From: Syntrophomonadaceae bacterium
Lineage (GTDB): Bacteria > Bacillota > Syntrophomonadia > Syntrophomonadales > Syntrophomonadaceae
Direction of reading: 5' to 3'
DNA: 48,022 nucleotides
Assembly: GCA_012511795.1 (NCBI GenBank)
Contig: JAAZFJ010000027.1
Span: 1-48,022 of the forward strand
Positions 40,752 through 47,558 of this stretch are shown piece by piece (positions within the stretch are counted from its first letter, which is position 1; each line of letters begins with the position of its first letter). The notes under the pieces are model-generated. The model was given only the letters and a program-made list of their open reading frames with translations. It was not told the DNA's origin and searched no databases. A program made the position numbers and the translations under genes.

Positions 40752-41822
40752 CTATACAGCATCTTTCAGATTATATCTGTAAACCAGTAAATCACTGATG
40801 ACACAGAAGGTATGATTTCTGCCGCGGTTATTATCATAGAGAACCGGCTGTCCTATCTCATCGGCCACTTTGATCAGATCATCAAAGGATTGCATCACGA
40901 TAGTTTTTTCATGATCCACGGCCGGGATGGCACCTCTTCCGGCGGCAATAAAATCACCATACTTTTTCATGATTTTCTTCAGTTCATTTTCCAGCGGATC
41001 TCTGACCCTTTCTGTTGTTTTAATTGACATCAACAGCAGCAAAAACAGGAAAACTGCAGCTGCAATGGTATAATTTCTAAATAAGGTTCTTGCTTCAGGA
41101 ACGGGAACCAGCTGAGCTTTGGTAACGGTCCCTTCTTTTTGATCCATAAGCTGCCCCTGTACCATAAAGGTATTGCCTTCCACCGGGATGATCATGACCG
41201 GGGCCAATTCTTCCTTTACTTCTCCATCCGCTGTTTTGATAAGGGAGCTTACATGATAGGTGATACTCAGCTGAACAAGATTTGATGTTATACGCAGTTC
41301 CTGATTGACGGCATTGATGAAATCCACATAACTGCGAAAATTCACCGGAGCCTGATTGTTTATGGTCAGGACCTGATCTTTGGTTTGAAAAGGGGTAGCA
41401 GGGATGAGCAGTTCTTCTTTTTCAAAGAGCTTCACCAATTCCGTTTCATCTTTGCTGCCTGCCTTTTCCCGGGTAAGATAACCGGTCAAAGCAGCGGTCA
41501 CTTTATACTCCCCGTTTACTTCCGCCTGACTGTCACCTTTAAACCGGTAAGTATAACTGGTATTGATGTAGTTGGTCAATGGCGTCATGTAAGCAAGGCC
41601 AGGGTCAGCACCCTCATTGGTGAAGAAATTGTTTGCAAGGTAATAGACCCGGTAGTTGATCTCAGCTTCCTGCAGGCAGTTGTAAACAGCTGCCTCCTCT
41701 GTTTTTTCAGTTGGCTGCAAATACCACCAGATGGCCATTCCACCTGAGCCCAACAGCAGCAAAACCAAGACTGTCAGGATACTTTTACGTAAAGTTGGGT
41801 TTATCCTTATCTTTCTGCTCAT
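40752..41822 (-). CDS. DUF5305-like membrane protein associated with the signal peptidase locus
   Basis: N-terminal TM, large extracytoplasmic domain, second TM (LFRNYTIAAAVFLFLLLLMSI), short cytoplasmic tail; ATGA overlap with the upstream small gene. Confidence 0.65.
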   Translation of the reverse strand: MSRKIRINPTLRKSILTVLVLLLLGSGGMAIWWYLQPTEKTEEAAVYNCLQEAEINYRVYYLANNFFTNEGADPGLAYMTPLTNYINTSYTYRFKGDSQAEVNGEYKVTAALTGYLTREKAGSKDETELVKLFEKEELLIPATPFQTKDQVLTINNQAPVNFRSYVDFINAVNQELRITSNLVQLSITYHVSSLIKTADGEVKEELAPVMIIPVEGNTFMVQGQLMDQKEGTVTKAQLVPVPEARTLFRNYTIAAAVFLFLLLLMSIKTTERVRDPLENELKKIMKKYGDFIAAGRGAIPAVDHEKTIVMQSFDDLIKVADEIGQPVLYDNNRGRNHTFCVISDLLVYRYNLKDAV

Positions 41823-41995
41823 ATATCTGCTCCTTTTTTCATAATTGCTTCCACGGCTTCTTGTGCCATAACAAGATACTGCCGGACCGGTATGGTCTGA
41901 AAGTAAACAGAACCTTTCAGGGCTTGCAGTTCTTCATACAGATCATCCAATACTGCCTTGACCTCCAGGATGGTCATGAATTCACCCGGTGTCAC
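41819..41995 (-). CDS. Small (58 aa) uncharacterised protein in the signal peptidase operon
   Basis: GTG start at 41995 with AAAGGAGGGAGG SD; 4-nt overlap with the next gene. Confidence 0.65.
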   Translation of the reverse strand: MTPGEFMTILEVKAVLDDLYEELQALKGSVYFQTIPVRQYLVMAQEAVEAIMKKGADI

Positions 41996-42009
41996 GATCC
42001 TCCCTCCTT

Positions 42010-43197
42010 TTAGGTAGTAAAAACGGAACTGTAAGCGCCGCGCATTAAAAGGCTGACACATCCTATTTTAGGTATGACCATTACCACCTCGCCCTGTACG
42101 TTTTTTTCCGGCAATAGATCGCTATCCGGGTCACTATTGGCATCTCCCTTGGTGGTAAAAAATCTTTCCCCTTCTTTTTCCTCCACAGCAACGATCCGAT
42201 GGGTCACTTTCATACTGCCCAGAGGAAACATGACGATATCACCGATTTCCGCTGCCGTGCCGGATACCTTGTGAACGATCACCACGTCACCAATTTTGAT
42301 GGAGGGCATCATGCTGCCGCTTAAAACCACCCGTGGGCTATAGCTGAATACACCCAGACAGAACCACATGATCAAAACCGAGGCCAGACAGGTCCCGATC
42401 CAGGAAAGGTATTCCTCTCTCTGGCGTGTGATTTTGATTTCTTTGGCTGCTTCTTTGTAGATCTGCTGTACCACCACCAAGGCCAGCAGAGGTGCAATAG
42501 TATCGAAAAGAGCGGCCATGATCCAATCTCCTCCAGGCAGGATGGGAGACAAATTTTCAAAAGCCAGGATCCCTCCCCGGTAAATCATGGCCGGTACCGG
42601 TCCTCCCAAATAGGCCAGATAGGTTGTAAGAATGTTTTGTGCCAGGCCCGGAAAAAAGCTGATACCAATAAATTCTGTGGCAGCCTTGATATCAGACAGG
42701 CTGGCTAATTTGTGCCAGGGCATAAGCAGCAAAGTAAAAAACAGGGCAGTGCAGGTTATGCCAAACCAGGGACGCCTGTAAAAAAAGCGGTTTAACAGCC
42801 ATGAGCGGCAAAGTTCGATGGCTGCCAGGGCAGAGCCCAGTGTTAAAAGATTGATGGTGATCCCCAGCAGGCTGTGGTCATAGGGGCTTTTGCCGAAGCC
42901 GCCCAGAAATCCCTGCAAAATCGAACCCAGGATGGCGATCAGGACGCAGATCAGAGCTCCCCAGCGAAGCAGCCGGCGCAGGCGCAGTTTGCCGCTGTAT
43001 TTTACCTGAGGGATCCGCAGCAGGAGGATGATCAATAAGGACCACATTACAACAGGCAGCAGATAATTGCCGGCTATGCCAGCAATTTTTGGCCCCAAAA
43101 CCAGGTTGTCCAGTAAAAATGCGGCTACTAAACTGCCAAAGACCATCAGCGGATAGTATATAGCTTTTCTTTGATGCAAATATTTTACTCCCATCAT
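42010..43197 (-). CDS. Signal peptidase I (SipW/ER-type, Ser-His dyad) fused to N-terminal polytopic membrane domain
   Basis: VVLSGSMMPSIKIGDVVIVHKV, GDIVMFPLG...KVTHRIVAVEE, FFTTKGDANSDPD; about 270 aa of hydrophobic segments precede the catalytic domain. Confidence 0.9.
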   Translation of the reverse strand: MMGVKYLHQRKAIYYPLMVFGSLVAAFLLDNLVLGPKIAGIAGNYLLPVVMWSLLIILLLRIPQVKYSGKLRLRRLLRWGALICVLIAILGSILQGFLGGFGKSPYDHSLLGITINLLTLGSALAAIELCRSWLLNRFFYRRPWFGITCTALFFTLLLMPWHKLASLSDIKAATEFIGISFFPGLAQNILTTYLAYLGGPVPAMIYRGGILAFENLSPILPGGDWIMAALFDTIAPLLALVVVQQIYKEAAKEIKITRQREEYLSWIGTCLASVLIMWFCLGVFSYSPRVVLSGSMMPSIKIGDVVIVHKVSGTAAEIGDIVMFPLGSMKVTHRIVAVEEKEGERFFTTKGDANSDPDSDLLPEKNVQGEVVMVIPKIGCVSLLMRGAYSSVFTT

Positions 43198-43267
43198 AGT
43201 CCACCTCTGGGCAATTATTCGAAATCGAAAAGAAAACCAGTTACGAGTAGAAAAACAGGCAGTTTTA

Positions 43268-43311
43268 CAGGGAAAAACGGGGAAGAGAGGTTGATCTCTC
43301 CTCCCCGTTAA
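43268..43311 (-). terminator. Intrinsic terminator between TasA-like gene and signal peptidase gene
   Basis: On the - strand: AACGGGGAGGAGAG-atcaa-CCTCTCTTCCCCGTTTTTCC. Confidence 0.8.
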
Positions 43312-43317
43312 TAGCTA

Positions 43318-44163
43318 TTAATCTAGCAAATTATTGATACTATTAAACTTGGGTTCTTGAGGATTATCCTGTTTGTCGATTACACGGTCGACTCTATTTT
43401 GTGTATTCCCTTTGATGTCATTCGGTAATTCGAAATTATATTCATTCCACTGAATTGCTTTGAGTTCTATGGAGAAATCATAAGTTGTCTTCTGTTCTGC
43501 TGCCTGTCTGACCCGGGTATATATCGCTACCGGGATCTCTTCACCGGGATCGATCTGGTAACCTTCTAATTTAACTGCACTGTAGGGGTTATCACAACCG
43601 GGATCATTGGTCCATACCATATAATCTGCCCCATTGTCTTTTTGTAAAGTAGGAACAGCATCAAACCAGATCTCCACCAGCAGGTCATCTTTAATAGAAA
43701 GTGCATTGATGGTATCAATATCGAATTTGGCTGGTACGGTACCCACATTTTTAATGGTGGTGAAGATGCGTTCCTGGTATCCGGGGTAACCATTTTTCAG
43801 GGTAATAGTCATTAGGTCATTAACATTACTGAAGGCTCCTTCATCATCTTGCTGTTTTTTAATCTTATATTCGATTTGTCCTATATTCTTGTTGGCATTA
43901 TCATTGCCCTGATCCAATTCATCCAGTCCTTCGCCATCTGCAGTTGTTCCATATACACCGTAGGGATCAGAAATATTAATGTAACCCTCGTAATTGGGGC
44001 CGGGATCAGGATTGAATGATTTGTCAGGAAGAAAAGTAACATCCAGGTTTCCGGTTTTAACGGTTTCATCAATCACCAGGGAATCTGACCACATTGCATA
44101 TGCTCCGCCCAGAGCTGCAAAAGCGAACACCATTAATAATGCCAAAATTCTGATCTTTTTCAT
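43318..44163 (-). CDS. SipW-dependent-type secreted protein (TasA/camelysin-like)
   Basis: MKKIRILALLMVFAFAALGGAYAMWSDSLVIDETVKTGNLDVTF; ATG at 44163 with AGGAGG SD (ORF track start at 44277 is too early). Confidence 0.8.
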   Translation of the reverse strand: MKKIRILALLMVFAFAALGGAYAMWSDSLVIDETVKTGNLDVTFLPDKSFNPDPGPNYEGYINISDPYGVYGTTADGEGLDELDQGNDNANKNIGQIEYKIKKQQDDEGAFSNVNDLMTITLKNGYPGYQERIFTTIKNVGTVPAKFDIDTINALSIKDDLLVEIWFDAVPTLQKDNGADYMVWTNDPGCDNPYSAVKLEGYQIDPGEEIPVAIYTRVRQAAEQKTTYDFSIELKAIQWNEYNFELPNDIKGNTQNRVDRVIDKQDNPQEPKFNSINNLLD

Positions 44164-44234
44164 TTTTATCCTCCTCATTTTTAAAGAACTTCTTTTTACC
44201 GGCGGCAGGATTCTTATGTACCCCTGATACAAGA

Positions 44235-44888
44235 TCAGCCATTTAGGGTTGCTCTTATATACAAGGTATCCTTCCACCAGGGCAGGCTGTCAATAAAACT
44301 GCCGTTCCACTGGATCACATGAATGGGGATAGTTAAGTAACAGGGATCAGGAAAAATATTTACATTGCCGGACAGCACTATACTGCCGTATACTACCTCC
44401 TCCGGTTCTATTTCCCATTTATCCATGGTGAAACTTTTCAGGTTTACAGCTTCTGAGCCGCCAGTTACTTGTCTTATTTCCAGCTCCTCATCGATTTTCA
44501 CCGGAATCGTGCCGCTGTTTTTAATACTGAATGAAATACCGATTTCATCCATTCGGTCCATCTGCATGACCGCAAAGCCAATCGCTTTATCCCTCTCATA
44601 GAGCATGGGTTCCCCTGTGTTGCATAAGTCATAGGATATACAATCATTTGGTACCCCCCAGGCCAATTGATCAAAATCTTCCCGGTAAAATTTCTCATCA
44701 AGGTAACCTTGCGTGTCCAGATATACTACTTCAACCTTTCCTGTGTGAACAACTTCATCAATATGCAGACTTTTCCCCCACATCGCCATTGCCGTTCCCA
44801 TAAGACCCAGTCCTGTTACAGAAGCAATACATAATATAAACAAAACCCATCCATATTTATGATTTTTACGGCGCTTTACTTTACTGAT
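44235..44888 (-). CDS. Second SipW-dependent-type secreted protein (TasA/camelysin-like); start probably non-canonical (ATC at 44888)
   Basis: ISKVKRRKNHKYGWVLFILCIASVTGLGLMGTAMAMWGKSLHIDEVVHTGKVEVVY; AAAGGAGG SD just upstream of ATC; first canonical codon (TTG 44843) lies inside the signal peptide. Confidence 0.75.
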   Translation of the reverse strand: MSKVKRRKNHKYGWVLFILCIASVTGLGLMGTAMAMWGKSLHIDEVVHTGKVEVVYLDTQGYLDEKFYREDFDQLAWGVPNDCISYDLCNTGEPMLYERDKAIGFAVMQMDRMDEIGISFSIKNSGTIPVKIDEELEIRQVTGGSEAVNLKSFTMDKWEIEPEEVVYGSIVLSGNVNIFPDPCYLTIPIHVIQWNGSFIDSLPWWKDTLYIRATLNG

Positions 44889-45052
44889 CTGTCTTCAAAC
44901 CTCCTTTCCTTTAATAAGTGGGGCTTAGTGGGAATCTCTGTGAGTTTTTCTTCCAGTAAAATTACTGCGTTGATGCTGTAATTTGAGTTTACTAATACCC
45001 CAACTTAAGTCCTACACTCCAAGGTCTAAAATACCCGGGACGAGAGGAGAAT

Positions 45053-45721
45053 TTACTCGGTATACTTTGGTACCATATGAGGCAGACTTCCCCGATCAGG
45101 TTCAGTCATTCCCATACCCCGCGAAAATGCATAAAGAGCTGCCTGGGTGCGATCTGAAAGGTTCAGCTTATATAAGATCTGGCTCACATGTTTTTTCACG
45201 GTGTATTCGGTAACATATAGTTTATCGGCGATATCCCGGTTGGATCTGCCGCCGGCTACTTCGGACAGCACCTCCAGTTCCCGGGCAGTCAGTTCTTCTA
45301 TGGGATCCCTGTTGTTTTTCATCAGGGTCTGCATAATGGACGGATCGATATAAGTTCTGCCTTTGGCTACCAGTTTTATGGCATTGATGATCTCTTCAGG
45401 CAGGGCTTCTTTTAAAATGTATCCTTCCACTTTTTCATTCATGGCTCTTTTGATATCTGCATAATTGCCCGAGGAACTCAAAATAATAAAACGGCATCGG
45501 GGAACAGCGTTCCTCCCTTCCTTGACTATATCAAGGCCGTATTCTCCGGGAAAGTGGAGATCCACCAAAGCCATATCAGGCTTAAGCTCAGTCAATAACC
45601 TCAGTCCTTCCCGGCAGCAGGAGGCAGAAGCCACGATTTCAAATCCATCATGACACTGAATGATTGAACTGATCCCTTGCATGACCAGGGGATGATCATC
45701 AATGAGCAGTATTTCCAACAT
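45053..45721 (-). CDS. NarL/FixJ-family response regulator
   Basis: LLIDDHPLVMQGI, ALVDLHFPGEYG, LuxR-type HTH LTARELEVLSEVAGGRSNRDIADKLYVTEYTVKKHVSQILYKL. Confidence 0.95.
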   Translation of the reverse strand: MLEILLIDDHPLVMQGISSIIQCHDGFEIVASASCCREGLRLLTELKPDMALVDLHFPGEYGLDIVKEGRNAVPRCRFIILSSSGNYADIKRAMNEKVEGYILKEALPEEIINAIKLVAKGRTYIDPSIMQTLMKNNRDPIEELTARELEVLSEVAGGRSNRDIADKLYVTEYTVKKHVSQILYKLNLSDRTQAALYAFSRGMGMTEPDRGSLPHMVPKYTE

Positions 45722-47558
45722 ATCTGACCTCCTTTTCCATGTCAGGGAGCAGGTGGGGAATCATACACCTGATGGTGGTTCCCTTCCCTTTAACACTGTC
45801 TATTTCCAGTTTTCCGCCATACCTTTCAGCGGTTTGGATCATATTGCCCAGTCCCAGTCCGTTCTTTTTCAATTCCTTTATTTTCTTCCAATGGAGACCA
45901 CATCCATCATCCTGTATTTCGATAAGGATCTGTTTCATATCCATCTTCAGGGAAACGGTCAGGGATTCGCATTTGCCGTGCCGGATTGCATTGCTGCAAG
46001 CTTCTCTGATCAGACGGTACAATGCCTTACGCAAAGAGGGACTAAGGACGCTTTCGTTTCCTTCAGCCTGCAGATCCACCCTGATCCCATGCATTCTGCC
46101 TAAATCGTCCAGATAGGAATTGATCATTTCTACAAAAATGTTTTCTCCCCGTTTATGAGGACTTAAGCCGTAAATTGATGCTTTCAGTTCCCGAGCGGCT
46201 TTGCTGGCCAAATTCTCCAGCAGTTTCAACTGCTGCTGTACTTTGGGATCTTTTACACTGGTATTCTGCTGACCTATAAGATGCAGGGAACATGCCATAC
46301 TGAAAAGATACTGGGCCACCCCATCATGTATGTCATTGGCGATCCGATTTTGTTCTTCACTAACCAGCAGACGCCCGAACAGCTTGTCTGCTTGCAGTCT
46401 TTCCAATGTAATCGCACCTAAGCCGGCCAGGAAGGAAAGGGATTTCATATTGTTTTCGAAACTGTTATCCGGATCGCGGGGTGCCAGGCAGGATAAAATA
46501 CCAAAGCTTTCACCATGGTAATAAAGAGGCTGGCAAATCAGGCTGCAATTATGATCCCAACTGCATGGCAAAACGGCATTCTGTTCATGGGTCAGTTGAT
46601 TACAGAGCTGATCCAGCTGCTGTTCCCAGGGACGGTAATAAAGCTCGCTGAATTCCCCGGCAATCTTCAGGTGTCTGCTGTTTAAACCTGAATCTAGCCA
46701 GACCGAGCCTGCTTCTTTTATAAAACAGGCTGCCGGTCTCCGGCACAGCCGGGCAGCATATTCTGCCAGTATATCAGCGATCTGCAGATGATCTTCTCCA
46801 TAAGAACAGGCTTCCAAAGCCTGGTACAGTGATGTAGTATGAGCCAGGGCATTTTTACTTTCTACATGAGCTGCTTCCAGTTTTGAATGAGCCCTGGCCA
46901 GTTCCTTGAACAAAACCGCAAACATCTGGCATAAGGCAGTGGTGATACAAAAAATCATGATCAAACTCATATGATTCACCAAGACTGACATTTCAAAAAG
47001 AGCAAATCCCATTAGTGTCGAGTGTAAGAGCAGGGTCGCTGTGAGAAACAAACCCATGGTCAGCCAGGAATTGTTGGTTCGAAGATAAAAAGCTGATACC
47101 ATGATGGGACTTAATGCATACCAGACAAAGGGACTGCTGAGGCCGCCGGTAGGCAGGGTGACCAGGACAGTGCCGGTGATCTCTATACCCAGCAGGAAAA
47201 GCAGCAGTGATTTTTTACTTTTGCAGGACCGGATGGTTTTATACGGATCATATATGTGGAATAAAAGGTCCACGATCTCTTTGTTGTTGTAAAGGCTCTG
47301 AGCCAGGATCACAGCAGCCAGCATGGCCAATACAACAGAAATTTTAATATGCAAAGCTGATTGGGGCGGCCCGGCCAAATAAAAAAGTGAAGTCAGGAAC
47401 ACCAGTAAAAACCGGGCAGTCAATAAAGCTTTGCGAATATAAACAGTGGGATTGATGTGATTCAGGTCATTAGTTTTGCCTGTTAAAGCATGTTTGTTGA
47501 GAAAATTAAAAAGGTTCGGGAATATGTCTTTGATTCTTTTTTCGAAATGGCTTGCCAC
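45699..47558 (-). CDS. NarX/DegS-type sensor histidine kinase (multi-TM, GAF-like, HisKA_3, HATPase)
   Basis: NRIANDIHDGVAQYLFSMACSLHLI, LIREACSNAIRHGK, IQDDGCGLHWKKIKELKKNGLGLGNMIQTAERYGG; overlaps the response regulator gene by 23 nt. Confidence 0.93.
   Translation of the reverse strand: MASHFEKRIKDIFPNLFNFLNKHALTGKTNDLNHINPTVYIRKALLTARFLLVFLTSLFYLAGPPQSALHIKISVVLAMLAAVILAQSLYNNKEIVDLLFHIYDPYKTIRSCKSKKSLLLFLLGIEITGTVLVTLPTGGLSSPFVWYALSPIMVSAFYLRTNNSWLTMGLFLTATLLLHSTLMGFALFEMSVLVNHMSLIMIFCITTALCQMFAVLFKELARAHSKLEAAHVESKNALAHTTSLYQALEACSYGEDHLQIADILAEYAARLCRRPAACFIKEAGSVWLDSGLNSRHLKIAGEFSELYYRPWEQQLDQLCNQLTHEQNAVLPCSWDHNCSLICQPLYYHGESFGILSCLAPRDPDNSFENNMKSLSFLAGLGAITLERLQADKLFGRLLVSEEQNRIANDIHDGVAQYLFSMACSLHLIGQQNTSVKDPKVQQQLKLLENLASKAARELKASIYGLSPHKRGENIFVEMINSYLDDLGRMHGIRVDLQAEGNESVLSPSLRKALYRLIREACSNAIRHGKCESLTVSLKMDMKQILIEIQDDGCGLHWKKIKELKKNGLGLGNMIQTAERYGGKLEIDSVKGKGTTIRCMIPHLLPDMEKEVRYVGNTAH

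Follow-up and report, generated by a model that had tools for sequence, protein, structure and literature searches.

What does a bacterium build with two paralogous secreted proteins, a signal peptidase and a DUF5305 membrane protein encoded side by side? The question is raised by a contig of a Syntrophomonadaceae bacterium (GCA_012511795.1, JAAZFJ010000027.1; 48,022 nt), part of a draft genome of 2.89 Mb in 419 contigs and analysed here as one whole window. The original prediction, made from the letters of this DNA, had seen in these genes a SipW/TasA-like secretion and surface-fibre locus in which other accessory parts replace TapA. We conclude that the locus is probably a dedicated system, under two-component control, that exports and assembles surface fibres of the TasA/AbpX superfamily. 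Of the earlier proposal, the secretion route, the superfamily and the linkage of the genes are upheld; fibre formation itself is predicted, and the model of cargo B matches the TasA fibre weakly. To our knowledge, how TasA-type fibres are started and attached is not settled, and the known accessory proteins (TapA, CapP, BsaB/C) are not common to species.

On the minus strand the genes run in the order histidine kinase, response regulator, cargo A, cargo B, Ser-His signal peptidase, a 58-aa open reading frame (ORF) and the DUF5305 protein. For the genes that had been predicted earlier, the gene calls bear out every particular of strand and order. Coordinates are collected in Table 1.

Cargo proteins and the predicted donor strand

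The motif that had drawn attention to the two cargo proteins is present in both, as AYAMWSDSLVIDETVKTGNLDV in B and AMAMWGKSLHIDEVVHTGKVEV in A, and their relationship is far above chance: in a profile–profile comparison the A and B families are homologous over 161 columns (prob 99.2, E=1.6e-19). Searched against solved structures, the B-family profile matches AbpX, an archaeal bundling pilin, with an E value of 7.1e-13 and TasA more weakly (0.006 to 0.008), while the A-family profile matches AbpX at 8.8e-10. Scans at the level of the family, with a 19-member alignment of B, were needed here, as the single cargo proteins of the window gave no usable matches. Among these 19 members, eight match camelysin (PF12389, best 2.6e-6), seven the BsaA family (TIGR04090, best 2.7e-4) and, at E<=0.1, six the SipW signal model TIGR04088 (cognate_SipW, best 6.4e-6). 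These data support the view of a SipW-type secretion locus with TasA-like cargo. No TasA-like protein other than A and B was found in the whole genome, and both lie at this locus.

The predicted cleavage site of the cargo, A-x-A/x-W (AYA/MW in B), places an aromatic residue at position P2'. An aromatic P2' renders TasA a poor substrate for the ordinary signal peptidase (PMC10269814). Downstream of the site, the W-x-x-x-L...TG motif can be aligned with W-S-E-T-L...TG, the N-terminal strand of AbpX, and in B the predicted mature N-terminus and donor strand reads MWSDSLVIDETVKTGNLDVT. The full motif is found in 69 of the 95 cargo-like ORFs that we collected from 35 loci. In the AbpX chain 9rhp the same strand stands at the C-terminus, which suggests a donor-strand construct, and in the monomer model of B the start of the N-terminal strand is unpaired and of low confidence. 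Given the alignment with the AbpX strand, the best reading is that A and B would form fibres by donor-strand exchange, as predicted from the N-terminal motif. Amyloid, the term used in the original prediction for the B. subtilis fibres, is not adopted here, since the TasA fibre and ABP-type pili are reported to consist of folded subunits joined into donor-strand filaments (PMC9674648).

Two variations on the cargo were seen in other loci. In Rossellomorea aquimaris the same core genes adjoin a tandem array of three TasA-like paralogues, encoded on the opposite strand (L044:11396-13690). Weak TasA-like matches were also given by large proteins in two further loci (536-642 aa; L075:14491-16419 and L017:10155-11786), which are possible tip adhesins.

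Linkage of the polytopic peptidase and DUF5305

The Ser-His signal peptidase foreseen by the original prediction proved to have an S26 catalytic domain of the endoplasmic reticulum (ER) type at about residues 266-388, scoring 83.6 bits with the archaeal/ER-type model TIGR02228 against a cut-off of 51.85. Residues S295, H333 and D352 are invariant in 12 homologues, and the closest solved structures are SEC11 subunits (SEC11A/C, 1.7e-18). Ahead of this domain lie about 260 residues in which predicted membrane helices are frequent; by hydropathy, the whole protein has six to eight hydrophobic segments. This polytopic N-terminal part is conserved among the homologues and matched no family in Pfam. 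The NCBI equivalog model for Bacillus SipW (NF046067) gave 61.6 bits, below its cut-off of 190. No other TIGR02228 protein is encoded in the genome.

The last gene of the locus encodes a DUF5305 protein (PF17231, 113.6 bits against a gathering cut-off of 29), and its topology agrees with the two membrane segments and large ectodomain that had been read from the sequence. In the AlphaFold model (pLDDT 86.5), transmembrane helices at residues 9-35 and 242-268 enclose a beta ectodomain (36-241) with unusually long strands, and a cytoplasmic domain follows (269-352). Two transmembrane segments were found by hydropathy in 12 of 12 members checked. Conservation is highest in the cytoplasmic domain (mean 0.56, versus 0.49 for the ectodomain). 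An attempt to derive the function from the fold was abandoned, with only weak beta-sandwich matches obtained (Spo0M, Af_0446 and TMEM106B; E 3e-4 to 6e-4, low TM), and no paper on DUF5305 was found in the literature searched, a search with most subscription journals and bioRxiv outside its scope. From its linkage, topology and shape, the DUF5305 protein is a probable assembly base or anchor.

To survey the neighbourhood, we searched genome contigs for relatives of the peptidase with a profile built from eight closer members. Polytopic peptidase and DUF5305 occur together in 34 distinct loci across Bacillota, a count of the loci where both genes were readable: the window, 11 loci of the class (L017-L027), 15 of the phylum sample (L074-L080, L082-L085, L088-L091), and L031, L033 and L041-L045, whose hosts are Bacillota bins, Clostridiaceae, Halobacillus litoralis and Rossellomorea aquimaris. 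Named relatives of the locus come from Syntrophomonas, Thermacetogenium and other Syntrophomonadaceae metagenome bins. Conversely, DUF5305 is present at 14 of 14 peptidase loci whose contig continues downstream. By genome, DUF5305 occurs in 14/63 of the class and 37/399 of the phylum sample, and in 0/14 control genomes, B. subtilis included. TasA-like genes adjoin the polytopic peptidase in nearly all loci where the contig allows it to be seen. The linkage of cargo and peptidase, which the original prediction had proposed to check by such a survey, is thus conserved. The exceptions to the pairing of DUF5305 with the polytopic peptidase are L086, where the contig ends, L028, L092 and L093, whose weak DUF5305 members have no polytopic peptidase beside them, and L029, where the operon has been lost.

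In the latter locus (L029:7377-9062; genome G051, same genus), the kinase is kept to the end of HisKA_3 and then continues in frame into the cytoplasmic domain of DUF5305; the intervening genes are gone. A natural operon deletion and an assembly artefact both come into question, the genome being a draft and the fusion having the look of an operon deletion. Separately, a diverged DUF5305 subgroup (L028, L092, L093) adjoins a kinase–regulator pair and lacks the polytopic peptidase, with a separate S26-like protein of ~370 aa nearby in L092 and L093; this subgroup is possibly a sister system.

Probable start of gene A and predicted subunit ratios

Gene A of the window has no in-frame ATG, GTG or TTG before the hydrophobic core of its signal peptide. 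Instead, a strong Shine-Dalgarno (SD) sequence, AAAGGAGG, is followed by ATC in the probable start position (44888-44886). The same arrangement is found in five relatives (L019, L021, L025, L027 and L040, of which L027 and L040 are close kin): in all six genes, ATC, ATA or ATT stands 10-12 nt past a 9-nt SD match, and ATG, GTG and TTG are absent ahead of the hydrophobic core. Later canonical codons in A would cost part or all of the signal peptide. Other relatives offer a canonical start, with ATG at the equivalent place in L026 and a usable TTG in L022 and L023. For gene B the start is canonical throughout: AGGAGG always precedes it, and the codon is ATG, or GTG in L039. Gene A most likely starts, then, at the non-AUG codon ATC 44888-44886, as read from these sequences. 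Sequencing error is an unlikely explanation, because the genomes stem from different studies.

A frameshift start on a slippery sequence was considered and set aside. The GTG found one frame off after the SD in several relatives belongs to an extended SD (AAGGAGGTGA). The relatives have no slippery run in common, and the alternative frame of the window meets a stop after five codons. A non-AUG start would keep translation of A low, which points to A as a minor or initiating subunit. Such a start kept across species is rare, and as a means of setting the ratio of subunits it would be unusual.

A second signal lies between B and the peptidase gene, where the window has a terminator-like hairpin (Table 1). 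In 10 of the 13 loci tested, window included, the same place after B is taken by a hairpin (-14 to -27 kcal/mol) followed by a T-rich tail. In Clostridium perfringens, a terminator after bsaA yields a sipW-bsaA transcript and a longer read-through transcript (PMC7395162). The non-AUG start of A and the hairpin after B would, by our inference, both set subunit ratios.

Wall-anchored subunits in relatives

In seven loci of the class (L017, L018, L022, L023, L024, L026 and L027), DUF5305 is followed by a third TasA-like protein with a C-terminal sorting signal of the LPXTG type, and in four of the seven a sortase comes next. LPXTG proteins are also encoded in the more distant loci L074, L075, L078 and L079. 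When the 95 cargo-like ORFs are divided by their N-termini, LPXTG signals are seen in 0/69 with the full donor-strand motif and in 11/26 without it; two of these 11 (L074, L075) retain the W and not the TG. The hypergeometric chance of this exclusion, calculated by hand, is about 1e-7, which is not a strict probability because the loci are related. A subunit of this kind could receive a donor strand and not give one, and it is sorted to the wall, as would be expected of the base of a fibre. The mutual exclusion of full motif and anchor predicts which subunit sits at the base.

The genome studied here has no LPXTG TasA-like gene that we could find, and the window holds neither sortase nor LPXTG pilins, so the locus does not have the makeup of a sortase-assembled pilus. 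Three sortases are encoded elsewhere in the genome, none adjoining TasA-like genes and two with unrelated LPXTG proteins.

Two-component pair and neighbouring genes

The kinase and regulator (45053-47558), upstream of cargo A, are conserved together with the locus. Orthologues of the kinase lie alongside cargo genes in L019, L022, L023, L025, L026 and L039, and also in the distant loci L041, L042, L043, L044, L076, L077, L080, L090 and L091. Orthologues of the regulator adjoin cargo genes at 60-68% identity. Overall, about half of the loci have a kinase and/or a regulator, and these include loci of Syntrophomonadaceae, Clostridiaceae and Bacilli. A promoter scan gave 15 sites versus 14.5 in shuffles, and in view of this lack of excess no promoter is claimed.

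At its other end the locus adjoins riboflavin genes on the opposite strand. For the 58-aa ORF, a search of 53 other genomes of the family found nothing similar. The one relative is a paralogue (43%) in the same genome (L100:1486-1674), located between excisionase-like and antirepressor-like genes, and both ORFs overlap the next gene by ATGA. Because it is not conserved and its paralogue lies in a prophage-like cluster, we rejected this ORF as a component of the system; it is probably a prophage-type gene that landed here.

Table 1. Features of the predicted fibre locus in the window, listed in the direction of transcription
Feature	Coordinates	Strand	Basis
Sensor histidine kinase, 619 aa, HisKA_3 + HATPase_c, first locus gene	45699..47558	-	Pfam PF07730 3e-12, PF02518 1e-14
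NarL/LuxR-type response regulator, 222 aa	45053..45721	-	PF00072 5e-20, PF00196 2e-16
Strong SD sequence of gene A	44900..44907	-	anti-SD duplex energy -15.0 kcal/mol
Cargo A, SipW-type secreted TasA/AbpX-superfamily protein, 217 aa	44235..44888	-	AbpX profile match 8.8e-10; homologous to B
Cargo B, SipW-type secreted TasA/AbpX-superfamily protein, 281 aa	43318..44163	-	AbpX profile match 7.1e-13, TasA 0.006-0.008
Predicted mature N-terminus and donor strand of B	44035..44094	-	alignment with AbpX N-terminal strand
Terminator-like hairpin between B and peptidase gene, 14-bp stem + U-run	43272..43309	-	71-nt region -28.6 kcal/mol, z = -5.4
Polytopic SipW-type signal peptidase, 395 aa	42010..43197	-	TIGR02228 83.6 bits, PF10502 31.7 bits
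58-aa ORF	41819..41995	-	has SD; ATGA overlap with next gene
DUF5305 membrane protein, 356 aa	40752..41822	-	PF17231 113.6 bits (gathering cut-off 29), 1.1e-32

Proposed mechanism and alternative readings

In the mechanism we envisage, the kinase and regulator would switch the operon on, as suggested by their linkage to it and by BsaRS of C. perfringens. A and B would be exported by Sec through their SipW-type signal peptides, with a P2' aromatic residue that ordinary signal peptidase disfavours (established for TasA and LepB). The polytopic SipW-type peptidase would then cut both proteins, and cleavage would free the mature W-x-x-x-L...TG N-terminus as a donor strand for the next subunit, in keeping with the AbpX alignment and with TasA. 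B would be the major subunit and A a minor or initiating one, kept scarce by its non-AUG start, and the peptidase and DUF5305 would be made in lower amounts because a terminator precedes their genes. DUF5305, with two helices in the membrane and a large beta ectodomain, would serve as assembly base or anchor, and together with the polytopic peptidase it may do the job of TapA in B. subtilis and of CapP in B. cereus. In relatives of this species, which itself lacks such a part, an LPXTG TasA-like subunit without a complete donor strand, sometimes aided by a sortase, would fix the base of the fibre to the wall. In syntrophic bacteria, fibres of this sort could hold cells against partner organisms.

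Several observations weigh against this scheme. Taken singly, A and B of the window fall below the camelysin and SipW-signal cut-offs in Pfam and NCBIfam scans (for TIGR04088, B gives 13.6-17.3 bits, under the curated cut-off of 19 bits). Structure prediction of the cargo, suggested earlier as a check, gave a divided answer: among solved structures, mature B is matched best by 8aur, the TasA fibre (E 0.007, prob 0.85), with weak TM values (0.27-0.29), and the model is only moderate (pLDDT 69.9, pTM 0.67), its beta core being well predicted. The weak DUF5305 members of L028, L092 and L093 occur without a polytopic peptidase, and a sensor role would fit DUF5305 as well as that of base or anchor. 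With a model of B too weak to prove a donor-strand fibre, A and B might be monomeric camelysin-like surface proteins or proteases (coat, adhesin or hydrolase) that the peptidase merely releases; camelysin, which names PF12389, is annotated as a metallo-endopeptidase, and relatives of B match that family. We consider this improbable, since the nearest solved relatives, AbpX and TasA, are filament subunits, the motif at the mature N-terminus has its counterpart in the N-terminal strand of AbpX, and the LPXTG-bearing members lack the complete motif, as a fibre base would.

The role of DUF5305 bears on another alternative, in which it is mainly a sensor or regulator, its ectodomain reading the status of subunits or fibre and its cytoplasmic domain signalling to the two-component pair. 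The conservation of that domain and its in-frame fusion to the kinase in G051 would suit such a role, as would the frequent presence of kinase and regulator in DUF5305 loci, including L092 and L093 with weak members and no polytopic peptidase. However, the fusion resembles an operon deletion in a draft genome, and in other loci (e.g. L074, L075, L083, L084 and L085) DUF5305 accompanies the polytopic peptidase with no kinase found nearby; we regard a mainly sensory function as unlikely. A third alternative, that this species has kept the operon only as a degenerate remnant, is very improbable. The missing wall-anchored subunit and adjoining sortase, the stray prophage-type ORF and the loss of the operon from a congener could be taken that way, but all six core genes are open, catalytic residues are conserved and ribosome-binding sites are present. 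Moreover, L019 and L025 also lack an LPXTG subunit in the locus and have kept the rest.

Fibre assembly thus remains our preferred reading for this locus, and its conservation invites a broader one. Since the pairing of polytopic SipW and DUF5305 is kept all the way from Syntrophomonadaceae to Halobacillus, the two are candidates for a shared assembly base, and DUF5305 thereby gains a function that can be put to the test. More tentatively, and as a possibility rather than an expectation, these loci may represent a widespread and so far undescribed class of SipW/TasA filaments in Bacillota. In this class, polytopic SipW and the two-transmembrane DUF5305 would form a membrane base that couples cleavage to donor-strand insertion, a non-AUG minor subunit would act as initiator, and in many species a wall-sorted TasA-like protein lacking the donor strand would be the fibre base.

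Comparison with known systems

A SipW fibre outside Bacillus with two-component control has already been published, namely BsaA of C. perfringens, where SipW, BsaA, BsaR and BsaS are each required for the pellicle and BsaA makes filaments (PMC7395162). The present locus has in common with sipW-bsaABCRSD (PMC7395162) a SipW-type peptidase, several secreted subunits, a two-component pair in the operon and a terminator past the main subunit gene; both belong to anaerobic Bacillota, and some relatives of B match TIGR04090. The components reported from C. perfringens are SipW, BsaA-D and the regulators, and neither DUF5305 nor a polytopic peptidase is described there. BsaA polymers withstand sodium dodecyl sulfate (SDS) and formic acid. 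Polytopic SipW combined with DUF5305, a variant to which a two-component pair is often added and in some loci an LPXTG base, was described in no paper that we found within the literature searched.

The tapA-sipW-tasA operon of B. subtilis is under SinR control and not that of a linked two-component pair. Like that operon (PMC9674648, PMC10151520), the present locus combines a dedicated ER-type signal peptidase with TasA-superfamily cargo bearing an aromatic P2', and it too is probably a two-subunit system. The gene order differs, however, and DUF5305 is missing from the B. subtilis control genome. The NCBI model of Bacillus SipW spans 189 positions, in contrast to the 395 aa of the present peptidase with its polytopic domain. 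No protein of the locus matches the TapA family, and the idea that DUF5305 and the polytopic peptidase replace TapA is plausible from the genes present.

With sipW-tasA-capP-calY of B. cereus (PMC13082335) the locus shares two TasA-like subunits, one accessory protein and processing by SipW. CapP is secreted and carries DUF4047 together with a C-domain that is disordered and wall-associated; DUF5305 is instead a membrane protein with two transmembrane segments. By sequence profile, the closest solved structures are those of AbpX (PDB 9sj2, 9rhp; ABP-like fibres of Pyrodictium abyssi, PMC11952670). AbpX is archaeal and the likeness lies in the pilin itself: AbpX and the cargo have in common the mature N-terminus W-S-x-T-L...TG and the core motif N-x-G-[ST]-[VI]-P.

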